64,000 bases of DNA from Siansivirga zeaxanthinifaciens CC-SAMT-1 (lineage in GTDB: Bacteria > Bacteroidota > Bacteroidia > Flavobacteriales > Flavobacteriaceae). The notes beneath the pieces are model-generated. The model saw only the letters and a list, made by a program, of their open reading frames with translations, made no database searches and was not told the origin of the DNA. Positions 5,303-10,077 of the stretch are shown here, one piece after another. The DNA is taken from contig NZ_CP007202.1 in assembly GCF_000941055.1 (NCBI RefSeq), positions 678,001 through 742,000 on the forward strand. Direction: 5' to 3'. Made by a program: the position numbers and the translations under genes. Position 1 is the stretch's first letter. Each line of letters begins with the position of its first letter.

Positions 5303-6178
5303 TTACGATCCTATAATCATTTTAATTTCCTTTCGGTAGTTAGAAGCACTTTTACCAGTTATTTCATTAAACTGTTTGTTAAAGTGAGAAAAATTATTAA
5401 AACCGCATTCAAAACAAACATCGGCTATACTCATTTGGCTTTCGTTAAGTAGTTTCGTAGCATGAACTACTCTGTATTCGTTTACTAGCTGAGTAAATGT
5501 TTTTCCGGTAACCTTTTTAAAATATCTACAAAAAGCTGGTACCGTCATGCTTACTTGGTCGGCAATTTCATCTAAAGAAATATGGTTCTGAAAATTTTTA
5601 TTTACATACTTAAAAATAATATCAACCTTCGAACTGTCTTGTGCTTCTGCTTCAAAAGCAAAACCGTCGGCATTTAAAAGGGTATAATCTTCGGTGGTAG
5701 CTAAGTAATCTAAAATTTCTAAAAACTTTAAAACGCGCTTTAAACCAGTATGCTCCAATAATTTTTCAATTTTTGGACCAATTTTTTGTTTAGTTTCAAC
5801 CTTATAACGTATTCCTTTTTTAGCCCTTTCAAATAACGATACTATATTAGACATTTCGGGAACTTGAAGAAAATCGTCTCCCAAAAAATTTGACTTAAAT
5901 TGTATCGTTGTTTCGGTTCCATTGGCCGTTAATCGATCGGTGAATCCATTATGCGGTAAATTAGACCCTATTAATATTAATTGACTATTATTAAAATATG
6001 ATAAATGATTTCCTATATGTGTTTTGCCCTGCCCTTTGTTAATGTAAATAAGTTCTAATTCTGGATGGAAATGCCAGTAAGCGAAGTTCTTATCTACAGT
6101 ATCTACATGTTGTTTAACTAATATAGAGCTTCCGAAACTTGGGGTGAGCTTCCTAAAAGTTGGCTTCTTATTAATCAT
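5303..6178 (-). CDS. AraC family transcriptional regulator with cupin sensor domain
   Basis: Residues up to about 130 form a cupin-like N-terminal domain (HFHPELELIYI, a typical AraC-binding segment), and the last 100 carry the two helix-turn-helix motifs of AraC (SLDEIADQVSMTVPAFCRYF and ADVCFECGF). The ATG at 6178 is chosen. An in-frame TTG at 6199 is excluded because a -7 box (TAATTTTG on the minus strand, 6197-6204) overlaps it. It is transcribed away from the tandem secreted-protein cluster; whether it controls that cluster or carbohydrate use is not known. Confidence 0.9.
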   Translation of the reverse strand: MINKKPTFRKLTPSFGSSILVKQHVDTVDKNFAYWHFHPELELIYINKGQGKTHIGNHLSYFNNSQLILIGSNLPHNGFTDRLTANGTETTIQFKSNFLGDDFLQVPEMSNIVSLFERAKKGIRYKVETKQKIGPKIEKLLEHTGLKRVLKFLEILDYLATTEDYTLLNADGFAFEAEAQDSSKVDIIFKYVNKNFQNHISLDEIADQVSMTVPAFCRYFKKVTGKTFTQLVNEYRVVHATKLLNESQMSIADVCFECGFNNFSHFNKQFNEITGKSASNYRKEIKMIIGS

Positions 6179-6291
6179 AACAAAAATATTATGTAACAAA
6201 ATTACAACTAAAAATAAAATAAATTCAATATATATTAACCCGAATCTGTGTTATTTTACCGCTTATCATATTTAACAATTCGTTAACAGGT

Positions 6292-6353
6292 AATATAGCA
6301 TAGAATGTTGTCAAATTAGATGTTTTTTTAGGTTTGTCTTTGCCATAAATTTG
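6292..6353 (+). promoter_or_regulatory. Relic promoter of the fourth family member
   Basis: AATATAGCAT (6292-6301) sits exactly 54 bases before a perfect -7 box TAAATTTG (6346-6353), and GATGTTTT lies 27 bases before it. The same boxes at the same 54-base spacing precede the three intact genes downstream, so this is a homologous promoter. What follows no longer encodes a full protein. Confidence 0.7.
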
Positions 6354-6355
6354 TC

Positions 6356-6500
6356 ATGTACAACAATAGTAATATTGAGTATAAGTTAAAAAGTCTTTTA
6401 GGTCATAAAATTTTAAATAAAGGATTTACAAATTTAAAATTTATTTAAATAAAAATATAACTCTGACATACAAGAGTATACAAAATTCATTAATAATTAG
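6356..6500 (+). pseudogene. Remnant of a fourth tandem secreted-protein gene
   Basis: After the relic promoter an ATG at 6356 opens only 30 codons before a stop. Further on, codons read in the frame of the final TAG (6498-6500) spell KYNSDIQEYTKFINN, matching the C-terminus FNSNNKEYTKFINN of the gene at 7741-8331. The central part of the gene is gone. The identical 76-bp 3' repeat and terminator follow. The intergenic span 6179-6824 is thus explained mostly by this relic and by the next promoter. An expressed short RNA from this unit is possible. Confidence 0.7.
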
Positions 6501-6559
6501 TTTAATGTCTTATTTAGTTTAGTTGGTAAAGTGAGCTGTGGTGGCTCACTTTTTTTTTG
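6484..6559 (+). repeat. 76-bp 3' repeat, copy 1, with terminator
   Basis: This 76-bp block is base-for-base identical to 7402-7477 and 8315-8390. It covers the last five codons and stop of the family, a short untranslated stretch and a terminator hairpin GTGAGC / GCTCAC (about 6530-6549) followed by nine T. Here it follows the gene remnant. Similarity to copy 3 extends upstream, giving 86 bp (6474-6559) nearly or fully identical. Confidence 0.93.
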
Positions 6560-6734
6560 CACTTAATTTAAATTTTTTCCTTTTTTAAAAAACCTATAAC
6601 TTTCTAAATAGGGGTATTCATTTTATAGTTAAAAATTAGAAGTAAATAAAAGCCCGAATTGGTAAATATGTGAAAATTTAACATCAATATATGTTATTTT
6701 AACCCCATCTAATCCCAACGACTATCAATCTGAT

Positions 6735-6796
6735 AAAATAGCATATAAATTTGCAAAAATCGATGTTTTTCTACTTCTTCTTCTGGCATATCTTTG
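6735..6796 (+). promoter_or_regulatory. Promoter of the first secreted-family gene
   Basis: AAAATAGCATATA begins at 6735, GATGTTTTT at 6762 (position of the -33 element) and the -7 box TATCTTTG at 6789-6796. The 54-base and 27-base distances to the -7 box are the same in the gene at 7741. The upstream box is a candidate activator site. Confidence 0.72.
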
Positions 6797-6824
6797 CCTT
6801 GTATAACAATTAATACACATAATC

Positions 6825-7418
6825 ATGAAAAATCTAATTTCAACAATAAAAAAAGGAAGCTTAGTAGTGGCTGTTTTAACATCATTAATAGGTAACGCTA
6901 AAGAAACTACACTTTTAAAAGATAAAATGTTAATAGAAAAAACAGCTTTAACACTTAATAATGTAAAAGCTGGTAATGTATTAACTATTAAAGATCTTGA
7001 TGGTATTATACTTTATAAGGAACTAATTAAAATGTCTGGCACTTACAAAAAAGGGTTCGATTTAACTGCTTTACCTAATGGCGATTATTTCTTTGAGGTA
7101 GATAAAGATTTAGAAATTCAAACCATTCCGTTTACAGTTACTAATAACATTGTTTTTTTAAATAAAGACAAAGAGACTACAACTTTTAAACCTTATGTTA
7201 AAAAGGTAAACGACTTAGTATATGTTACTAAATTGGCTCCTAAAAAAGAAGCTATGACAATTAGTATTTATTCTTATAACAATTCTGAGGAATTAATTCA
7301 TACTGAAAAAGTTGAAGGCACTCAAACCATTGAAAAAGTATACAAATTGCAAAAAGGCGATTATAGAATAGTTTTTAAAACAGAAGATAAAGAATTTACA
7401 GAATTCATTAATAATTAG
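6825..7418 (+). CDS. Secreted tandem-family protein 1 (unknown function)
   Basis: The 197-residue protein begins with a signal-peptide-like segment (KKGSLVVAVLTSLIGNAK). The mature part is predicted to be beta-rich and resembles an Ig-like module: LTLNNVKAGNVLTIKD, then GTYKKGFDLTALPNGDYFFEV, then QTIPFTV. A second half ends in GDYRIVFKTEDKEF. No catalytic motif or cysteine pair is visible. It is the first of three adjacent paralogues with one promoter and terminator each. A DUF3244-like or periplasmic adhesive role is a guess only. Confidence 0.85.
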   Translation: MKNLISTIKKGSLVVAVLTSLIGNAKETTLLKDKMLIEKTALTLNNVKAGNVLTIKDLDGIILYKELIKMSGTYKKGFDLTALPNGDYFFEVDKDLEIQTIPFTVTNNIVFLNKDKETTTFKPYVKKVNDLVYVTKLAPKKEAMTISIYSYNNSEELIHTEKVEGTQTIEKVYKLQKGDYRIVFKTEDKEFTEFINN

Positions 7419-7477
7419 TTTAATGTCTTATTTAGTTTAGTTGGTAAAGTGAGCTGTGGTGGCTCACTTTTTTTTTG
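7402..7477 (+). repeat. 76-bp 3' repeat, copy 2, with terminator
   Basis: This copy is identical to 6484-6559 and 8315-8390. It contains the C-terminal codons of gene 1, its stop and the GTGAGC / GCTCAC hairpin with nine T. The 263 bases between it and the next ATG hold only the next promoter. Confidence 0.95.
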
Positions 7478-7650
7478 TTTAATAGTCATAGTTTTTTCTG
7501 TTGAAATTTTGAAAATTTACAATCAATACTTCGTTGTTAAGTTATAACCTTTAAACCTTAAGATGGCTTCTGTTTTTTTAATGAAAAAAAGGAAATACAA
7601 TAAATTAACCTTAAAATATGCTCAATTAACATCAACCAATAACTGTTGTT

Positions 7651-7712
7651 AAAATAGCATATATATTAGTAAAAATGGATGTTTTGAAACCTTTTAAACC
7701 ATCATATCTTTG
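7651..7712 (+). promoter_or_regulatory. Promoter of the second secreted-family gene
   Basis: AAAATAGCATATA starts at 7651 and the -7 box TATCTTTG is at 7705-7712, 54 bases later. TTTG at 7683-7686 with an 18-base spacer gives a canonical -33/-7 pair. Confidence 0.78.
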
Positions 7713-7740
7713 TATTGTTAATTAGTAATAACCCCAAATT

Positions 7741-8331
7741 ATGAAAAACCTAATCTTATATATAAAAAGAAGCGCCTTACTAATAACGGCATTAAGCACA
7801 TTATTAAGCAACGCAACAGAAACTTCAACTTTTAAAGATAACATTAAAAAAACAGCACTTACTTTAAGTAATGTAAAGCCAGGTGATCTTTTAACCATTC
7901 AAGACACAAATGGTGTTACACTTTATAAAGAATTGATAGAAATTGAAGGGACTTACAAAAAAGGATTCGATTTAAATTCATTACCTAATGGAAACTATTT
8001 CTTCGAACTACAAAAAGCATTCGAAGTACAAACCATTCCTTTTACTGTAAATAATAAATTAGTTGTATTCAATAAAGCTGAAAAATCAACTACATTTTTA
8101 CCTTATACAAGACTAAAAAACAACATGCTTTTTGTTACAAAATTAGCCCCAAACAACGAAGCATTAAAAATTAGTCTTTTCATAGAAAACACCTCAGGAT
8201 TCGAATTAATTCACACTGAAGAAGTAGAAGGCATTCAATCGATAGAAAAAGTATATAAATTACAAAAAGGAAACTATAAAATAGTTTTCAACTCTAATAA
8301 CAAAGAGTATACAAAATTCATTAATAATTAG
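7741..8331 (+). CDS. Secreted tandem-family protein 2 (unknown function)
   Basis: This 196-residue paralogue of the gene at 6825 keeps the same layout: signal peptide (LLITALSTLLSNATE), LTLSNVKPGDLLTIQD, GTYKKGFDLNSLPNGNYFFEL, QTIPFTV and a C-terminal half ending EYTKFINN. By eye it agrees with gene 1 at well over half of positions, whereas the DNA at its 3' end is fully identical to that of gene 1. It has its own promoter and terminator. The function is unknown. Confidence 0.85.
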   Translation: MKNLILYIKRSALLITALSTLLSNATETSTFKDNIKKTALTLSNVKPGDLLTIQDTNGVTLYKELIEIEGTYKKGFDLNSLPNGNYFFELQKAFEVQTIPFTVNNKLVVFNKAEKSTTFLPYTRLKNNMLFVTKLAPNNEALKISLFIENTSGFELIHTEEVEGIQSIEKVYKLQKGNYKIVFNSNNKEYTKFINN

Positions 8332-8390
8332 TTTAATGTCTTATTTAGTTTAGTTGGTAAAGTGAGCTGTGGTGGCTCACTTTTTTTTTG
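8315..8390 (+). repeat. 76-bp 3' repeat, copy 3, with terminator
   Basis: This copy is identical to 6484-6559 and 7402-7477 and holds the stop of gene 2 and its terminator. The 211 bases up to the next ATG contain only the promoter of gene 3. Confidence 0.95.
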
Positions 8391-8510
8391 TTCTTATTTT
8401 TAAATAAAAAACTATCATTTCAATACCATTGAAATTTTATAAAATAAATCAAAATTAACTCTAAAATATAGCCAATTAACCCAACAAAAAAACAGCCTGA
8501 AAAAATAGAT

Positions 8511-8572
8511 AAAATACCACATATATCAGTCAATATCAGCGATTTAAAACTTAAAAACAGGTGTTATATTTG
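8511..8572 (+). promoter_or_regulatory. Promoter of the third secreted-family gene
   Basis: AAAATACCACATATA starts at 8511, again 54 bases before the -7 box TATATTTG (8565-8572). The -7 box rules out the upstream in-frame TTG at 8575 as a start and supports the ATG at 8602. Confidence 0.7.
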
Positions 8573-8601
8573 TCTTGTTGAACGTTATAAAAACATATAT
8601 T

Positions 8602-9219
8602 ATGAAAAACGTAATTAAAAACACAAAAAAAGGAATCTTCATGGTAATCATGTTTGCTACCATGTTAAGTTTCGCAAATGAAGTTTCATTTTATTCTATT
8701 ACTAAAAATGGTAACGAAACTTCTTTAACATTAAACAATGTAAAAGCCGGTGACTTATTATCTATTTTAGATGACAAGGATGTTGTATTATATAAAGAAA
8801 TTATCCAGAACGACGGAAGCTATACGAAAGGTTTCGATTTAAGCACGCTGCCTGATGGATCTTATGCTTTCGAATTGAATAAAATGGTAGAGATAAAAAC
8901 AATACCTTTTACAATTTCTAACAACAACGTAACCATTAATAAAACAGCCGAAAAAACTATTTACAAGCCCATTACAAGAGTAAAAGGCAGTGTTGTATTA
9001 ATCTCTAGATTTTCGTTAGAAAAACAACCCTTAACCGTTGAAATTTATTATAGCGCAGACGACAGCGTTTATAATAATGCGGAATTAATTTACTCTGAAA
9101 AAATTAAAGACACTGAAAACTATAACAGAGTATTTAGATTGGCCGATGTAAATAAAGGTTCGTATCGCATTGTGTATAATACAGACGGGAGATCTTTCAC
9201 TGAAGAAATTAACAAATAA
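8602..9219 (+). CDS. Secreted tandem-family protein 3 (unknown function)
   Basis: This is the most divergent of the three paralogues, about 205 residues. It keeps a signal peptide (GIFMVIMFATMLSFANE), LTLNNVKAGDLLSILD, GSYTKGFDLSTLPDGSYAFEL, IKTIPFTISNN and a C-terminal GSYRIVYNTDGRSF. Unlike the other two it lacks the 76-bp repeat and has its own terminator. The start at 8602 is set by the -7 box at 8565-8572. The function is unknown. Confidence 0.85.
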   Translation: MKNVIKNTKKGIFMVIMFATMLSFANEVSFYSITKNGNETSLTLNNVKAGDLLSILDDKDVVLYKEIIQNDGSYTKGFDLSTLPDGSYAFELNKMVEIKTIPFTISNNNVTINKTAEKTIYKPITRVKGSVVLISRFSLEKQPLTVEIYYSADDSVYNNAELIYSEKIKDTENYNRVFRLADVNKGSYRIVYNTDGRSFTEEINK

Positions 9220-9242
9220 ACTATCAAACTAACACTTACTTT

Positions 9243-9284
9243 AAAAAAGCGACTCTAATTACAGAGTTGCTTTTTTTTTTTTGA
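9243..9284. terminator. Intrinsic terminator between convergent genes
   Basis: GCGACTCT and AGAGTTGC pair (one G-T wobble) and are followed by a long T run. It closes the secreted-protein cluster and faces the crotonase gene. Confidence 0.85.
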
Positions 9285-9294
9285 TATTTAGTCT

Positions 9295-10077
9295 TTATTC
9301 CCCAGGAAAATCTGCTTTTCTTTTTTGTAAAAAAGCAGTGGTACCTTCGGTAAAATCTTGGGTTTCGAAGCATTTTCCAAAAGCTTCAATTTCAAAATTA
9401 TAGCCATTAACACCATCTTTAAAATTAGCATTTACAGCTTTAATAGCTGCAGCGATGGCTACAGACGAATTTTGAGAAATTTTAGTTGCTAATTTTTCGC
9501 AAAATACCAGTAATTCCTCTTGAGTTGTTACATGGTTTACCAAGCCATAATTTAAAGCCTGTTGGGCGTCAATCATGTTGGCAGTCATTATAAGCTCCAT
9601 CGCCCGACCTTTGCCTATTAATTGGGGTAAACGTTGCGTGCCACCATAACCCGGAATAACACCCAGAGAAACCTCTGGAAGCCCCATTTTGGCATTGGTA
9701 CTAGCAACTCTAAAATGGCAGGCCATGGCCAATTCGAGTCCGCCGCCTAAAGCAAAACCATTAATAGCAGCAATGACAGGTGTTGACAGGTTTTCAATAA
9801 AATCGTATAAAATATCATGCCCTTTGGCCGATAAACGGGTTCCTTGCTCTACATTGAAATTTGCAAACTCGCTAATATCGGCACCAGCAACAAAAGCCTT
9901 TTCCCCACTTCCGGTTAAAATAATAACCTTACAGGTTTTGCTTTTACTTGCCTCACTAATGGCACGATGCAATTCTTCAATGGTTTGAATATTTAAAGCA
10001 TTTAACTTGCTTGGCCTGTTTACAGTAATTGTTGTAATACCATTAATTTCTTCTGAAATAATATTCTCGTAAGACAT
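9295..10077 (-). CDS. Enoyl-CoA hydratase/isomerase (crotonase family)
   Basis: The 260-residue protein has the crotonase signature: the oxyanion-hole segment AFVAGADISEF near residue 65, INGFALGGGLELAMACH with a catalytic glutamate, and LPEVSLGVIPGYGGTQRL with the second glutamate. Both glutamates present argue for true hydratase activity on short-chain enoyl-CoA, as in beta-oxidation or butanoate metabolism. The ATG giving MSYENIIS (10077) is preferred over the longer frame starting at 10116. It is downstream of and codirectional with a sensor kinase gene. Confidence 0.93.
   Translation of the reverse strand: MSYENIISEEINGITTITVNRPSKLNALNIQTIEELHRAISEASKSKTCKVIILTGSGEKAFVAGADISEFANFNVEQGTRLSAKGHDILYDFIENLSTPVIAAINGFALGGGLELAMACHFRVASTNAKMGLPEVSLGVIPGYGGTQRLPQLIGKGRAMELIMTANMIDAQQALNYGLVNHVTTQEELLVFCEKLATKISQNSSVAIAAAIKAVNANFKDGVNGYNFEIEAFGKCFETQDFTEGTTAFLQKRKADFPGE

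Follow-up and report, generated by a model that had tools for sequence, protein, structure and literature searches.

Why should three stretches of 76 bp in one gene cluster be identical base for base, when the coding regions attached to them have diverged widely? The question is raised by a window of 64,000 nucleotides from a Flavobacteriaceae genome (a single contig of 3.3 Mb), in which an earlier note had reported such identity at 6484-6559, 7402-7477 and 8315-8390. We find the same identity, and the same divergence of the coding parts: the proteins of genes 1 and 2 are 59% identical and their four-fold codon sites agree at 47%, so that agreement at 76 of 76 positions lies far beyond chance. 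The note's description of the copies as 3' ends of tandem paralogues applies to copies 2 and 3, each of which carries the C-terminal codons INN-stop of its gene, followed by the 3' untranslated region and terminator, but not to copy 1, which is not a gene end; no open reading frame (ORF) of at least 60 aa finishes there, and the longest has 30 codons at most. The third paralogue, at 8602-9219, differs in its 3' end and lacks the module, as we refer to the repeat. A 101-nt query around copy 1 matched these three copies strongly, and no further place in the genome below E 0.04. The locus is laid out as follows.

5303..6178, minus strand: gene for an AraC-type regulator (291 aa), transcribed away from the cluster; Pfam HTH_18 and HTH_AraC above cut-off
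6262..6353, plus strand: promoter region of the RNA-only copy (~90-nt consensus), with ATAGCATA box, GATGTTTT at 6319-6326 and TAAATTTG (sigma-A type) at 6346-6353
6358..6483, plus strand: non-coding leader of the RNA-only copy, its start inferred from the box; stem ACTCT 6460-6464 / AGAGT 6473-6477
6484..6559, plus strand: RNA-only module copy 1: linker at 6501-6527, hairpin of the terminator at 6528-6552 (loop GTGGT), then a T tail
6762..6796, plus strand: promoter of gene 1 by pattern match, GATGTTTT and TATCTTTG (6789-6796)
6825..7418, plus strand: gene 1, 197-aa DUF3244-like protein; Pfam matches under curated cut-offs
7402..7477, plus strand: module copy 2, taking in the final codons and stop of gene 1; linker at 7419-7445, then the terminator
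7678..7712, plus strand: promoter of gene 2 by pattern match, GATGTTTT and TATCTTTG (7705-7712)
7741..8331, plus strand: gene 2, 196-aa DUF3244-like protein; Pfam matches under curated cut-offs
8315..8390, plus strand: module copy 3, taking in the end and stop of gene 2; linker at 8332-8358, then the terminator
8602..9219, plus strand: third paralogue (205 aa), with a different terminator and without the module

The earlier note had proposed either that gene conversion keeps the 3' ends alike, or that the RNA 3' end is constrained, for example as a 3'-derived small RNA, and had suggested comparing the repeat with third codon positions in sister species. A covariance model of the module, built from five copies in four genomes, has hits at E<=0.01 in 55 of 397 Flavobacteriaceae genomes (38 of 237 genera), although about four of the 55 genomes may be chance matches. 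Beyond this family, eight of 296 genomes of the order match, of which four are Flavobacteriaceae and four are weak (E 5e-4 to 8e-3), about the level of chance. When named genomes were scanned for an exact 21-mer, 82 stretches were recovered, every one of them belonging to Flavobacteriaceae or to unclassified Bacteroidota bins (one titled just 'Bacteroidia bacterium', another 'Flavobacteriales'). Eighty strong copies, which are the 107 matches at E<=0.1 minus 27 without the motif core, were retained; 70 of these have an exact 24-mer in common, and the 49-nt core of the window is unchanged in 16 copies from eight genomes. When gene-linked copies were paired between genomes (892 pairs), the module was 97.5% identical over its first 24 nt (a figure biased upwards, as copies were picked by their likeness to the model) and 78% in the terminator part, compared with 43% at four-fold codon sites, 50% in the protein and 49% in the 50 nt downstream. 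Because the first 24 nt are held at 97.5% while four-fold sites stand at 43%, constraint on the RNA explains the identity, and the second proposal of the earlier note gains support from conservation across genomes.

Conversion or recent tandem duplication acting alone, on a module without function, is by comparison most improbable. It would account for the private variants common to the copies of single genomes (G191, G396, G181 and G361) and for the six tandem copies with duplicate units in Tamlana nanhaiensis, but the same 49-nt core is found in seven other genomes, and identity between genera contradicts it. Mean mismatches are similar for copies of one genome (1.16, 44 pairs) and copies of congeneric genomes (0.96, 51 pairs), against 2.77 between genera, and homogenisation does not extend to the coding and downstream DNA alongside. 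The pattern argues for selection on the RNA, to which duplication or conversion adds without being the sole cause of identity. In the T. nanhaiensis array (L196, minus strand), units 3-4 and units 5-6 duplicate each other almost exactly, which suggests that this array has grown recently. Separately, genomes G106 and G313 hold seven family members apiece, three of them listed with an in-frame stop, and the gene cluster there seems to gain and lose genes fast.

At the 3' end of each unit, a short 5' stem just before the module is followed by a linker that is for the most part single-stranded, UUUAAUGUCUUAUUUAGUUUAGUUGGU, and by the hairpin of the terminator. In 30 of the 37 gene-less copies the 5' stem can form at least five Watson-Crick pairs (shuffles: mean 12.3, maximum 19; control with 5' arms swapped: mean 18.3, maximum 23). 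Among gene-linked copies, all five stem pairs are present in 15 of 41, where permutation expects 7.4 and none of 1000 permutations attains 15; double changes in the stem, taken alone, are not in excess over permutation in these copies (70/1000). The terminator loop hardly varies, most copies having TGTGGT, although the stem bases change between species, which is unusual for a plain terminator, and the UUUAG unit of the linker occurs two, three or four times depending on the species, resembling microsatellite-like slippage (e.g., window 6513-6524; L105 2996).

Such a structure might be thought to act purely in cis, as an efficient terminator or an mRNA-stabilising 3' end, given that a strong hairpin and T run close the module and that it begins 0 nt past the stop codon in most gene-linked copies. 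Conservation is highest, however, in the unpaired linker and not in the stem of the terminator, which changes between species; gene-less copies persist in many genera with a promoter of their own; and the linker matches the start regions of susC genes, as detailed below, for which a cis role offers no explanation. We consequently regard a purely cis-acting stability element as unlikely.

The gene-less copies are numerous. Of the 80 strong copies, 43 follow an ORF of at least 150 aa and 37 do not, two of the latter (L104 and L109) lying within 270 nt of a contig end, where their status cannot be judged; L104 resembles a truncated gene end, and L109 may duplicate a copy in L110. The motif TAnnTTTG, described as the sigma-A box of F. 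psychrophilum (PMC9723704), stands 100-235 nt upstream of 30 of the 35 judgeable RNA-only copies, as against 596 of 5000 random stretches (11.9%). A search of both strands of the window with [AG]ATGTTTT-N12..20-TAnnTTTG returned three matches, at 6319, 6762 and 7678, all on the plus strand. Across genomes, GATGTTTT-N12..20-TAnnTTTG is present in 20 of the 30 promoters of RNA-only units and in 18 of the 42 of gene-linked units, but in none of 100 susC stretches, and the promoter consensus of ~90 nt is common to RNA-only and gene-linked units. Repeated TTAACA and the ATAGCATA box recur at 6262-6353 of the window and in the promoters of L071-L121; this stretch may be an operator at which the AraC protein encoded next to it binds.

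RNA-only leaders vary in length (93-221 nt) and have no common frame. Ten of 30 can still be aligned by blastn with gene-linked units, chiefly with the 5' ends of the latter, and a decayed gene start remains in some, extending over 158 nt in L087. Of 51 carrier loci that were fetched, 47 have an AraC homologue lying divergently next to the modules (the closest named relatives of the window's own AraC gene being those of Mariniflexile and Aestuariibaculum), and the first copy follows it at ~270-500 nt where RNA-only and at ~780-920 nt where gene-linked. That first copy is RNA-only in 50 and gene-linked in 28 of 78 loci, across named Flavobacteriaceae genera, and on a quick AraC tree of the 78 loci its state changes 11 times, with at least six changes forced by starred branches. 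While the tree alone gives no direction, these changes in combination with the gene remnants in leaders read as repeated loss of the coding part, with promoter and 3' RNA retained. Copy 1 could instead be a strain-specific pseudogene, left by a recent deletion, in keeping with its want of an ORF and with the decayed gene starts seen elsewhere; the prevalence of the RNA-only state at this position, and the retention of promoter and module, make this the least credible of the explanations considered.

As FopS small RNAs (sRNAs) are reported to repress susC mRNAs in Bacteroides (PMC11697453), susC starts were tested as targets, using the duplex energy of the linker against positions -60 to +45 of the start, expressed as z. 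The 12 susC genes of the window genome have a mean z of -2.08, compared with 0.05 for 57 ORFs of the window. Over 42 susC starts from the window genome and six further carriers of the module the mean is -2.38, where other ORFs of the same loci give 0.00 (n=32) and the reversed linker -0.07; 30 susC starts from six non-carrier genomes average -0.85. In a larger set, from which four susC genes without a start codon were dropped, 97 carrier genes from seven genomes (all 12 over the cut-off in the window genome, and the best 85 of 158 in the six others) average -1.77, and 71 non-carrier genes (the best 71 of 139, six genomes) -0.50, with p=1.2e-6, these p values treating related genes as independent. 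The complementarity is confined to the start region: for 39 of the 42 genes (three were excluded because of their short flanks or their reading frame) the mean is -2.17 over -60 to +44, with 21 of 39 at z<=-2, but -0.20 over -130 to -26 and +0.13 over 0 to +104. The signal is strong in G197, G345, G181 and the window genome, moderate in G084, and weak in carrier G357 (n=24, -1.11); carrier G137 shows no clear susC signal (n=5, -0.60). Genome-wide, the antisense 13-mer is not in excess (271/234 versus 286/282 for controls). The start of the AraC gene and the three genes of the cluster were also considered as linker targets and ruled out (z +0.97 to +1.37).

Since non-carrier susC starts also score below zero, susC leaders have a general bias to such sequence. 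The susC leaders of one clade (L254-L265 and L284-L313) often have AACTAAACTAAA shortly before the ATG. The gene family is present in 20 non-carrier loci, with an AraC match in 19, one of these 19 being partial, and several gene 3' ends in these loci bear UUAGUUAG-type linkers. When linkers of four non-carrier genera (cut by eye from stop codon to terminator, one gene each) were compared with the Algibacter linker on the susC genes of their own genomes, two of the four were matched to their own lineage: G176 scored -1.84 versus -0.47 (paired p=0.0016) and G063 -1.44 versus -0.48 (paired p=0.006). G014, whose linker is that of one of five genes, chosen with AGTT repeats, and G091 showed no preference for the own linker (p=0.11 and 0.78, respectively).

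These comparisons bear on a further alternative, that the RNA binds a protein as a sponge, for instance through its UUUAG repeats, the susC match being secondary or a common translation-enhancer motif. The two to four UUUAG repeats, the invariant loop and the slightly negative scores of non-carrier susC leaders are compatible with this. The signal is nevertheless lineage-matched in two other genera and limited to the start region, and the genome has no Hfq, and no match to RRM_1 (PF00076) at E<=0.001 in a search that was positive in Bacteroides ihuae. A sponge is rather improbable, on a par with the cis-acting element. The want of Hfq and RRM_1 also counts against the reading that follows, as it leaves the RNA with no known chaperone.

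The reading that we prefer, at a probability of roughly 70%, is that the module defines a multicopy sRNA family, produced partly from mRNA 3' ends and partly from RNA-only genes, which represses SusC-type transporters and thereby probably turns sugar uptake down. Each unit would be transcribed from a promoter of the AraC cluster and would yield a stem, linker and terminator. Where the upstream part of a unit encodes a small secreted protein, the RNA would arise from the 3' end of the mRNA; in other units the coding part has decayed, leaving promoter, leader and module. The linker would pair with the start codon of susC-type mRNAs and the bases immediately before it, and pairing at that site would be expected to block translation of TonB-dependent glycan transporters. 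From genomic evidence we infer transcription, cleavage from the mRNA, repression, and AraC control of the RNA units. A more ambitious version, which we put forward tentatively and at somewhat less than even odds, holds that the RNA is the conserved product, that secreted-protein genes have repeatedly been made RNA-only, that linkers and susC leaders coevolve by lineage, and that all this forms one AraC-linked switch of glycan uptake across the Flavobacteriaceae.

The Flavobacteriaceae are prominent degraders of polysaccharides, and the family described here is small and countable, with predicted targets in many polysaccharide loci. It also shows, in nature, intermediate stages on the way from a protein gene to an RNA gene; to our knowledge such intermediates are rarely seen in bacteria, and our literature searches listed neither a fitting case of conversion of a protein gene to an sRNA, nor a flavobacterial sRNA with a susC target. 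Among Rfam 15 families, eight matches at E up to 5 fall in 6200-9300, none of which attains its gathering score; the Bacteroides sRNA BTnc049 matches weakly, at 20.8 and 19.7 bits against a gathering score of 81.9.

Two known systems invite comparison, within what their published accounts describe. FopS of Bacteroides thetaiotaomicron is reported to comprise 14 members (nine intergenic, four antisense and one 3'UTR-derived), to bind the RRM protein RbpB, and to pair through its seed near the start codon of susC mRNAs from polysaccharide loci, repressing their translation (PMC11697453). The present family resembles FopS in being multicopy and paralogous, with sigma-A-type promoters (three copies of a predicted RNA here, up to six in T. 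nanhaiensis), in the predicted complementarity of its seed to the susC start region, and in having members predicted to be 3'UTR-derived. It differs in that its copies are grouped next to a single AraC gene and roughly half come after a stop codon, that no RRM_1 protein is encoded, and that RNA-only copies look like decayed genes. As the genome lacks RRM_1, and as the two were compared by description, we do not file the module under FopS; our findings suggest that sRNA control of SusC arose here via a different RNA than in Bacteroides. In 3'UTR-derived sRNAs such as CpxQ, the 3'UTR is described as more conserved than the gene, having its own terminator and forming the non-coding arm of the protein gene's regulon (PMC9438474). 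The module is likewise more conserved than its coding sequence (0.975 against 0.43 at four-fold sites, the former biased upwards), has its own terminator and would serve as such an arm. Unlike the CpxQ type, its predicted pairing is with susC starts, Hfq is absent, and the RNA has repeatedly come to exist also as a promoter-driven gene without a coding part.
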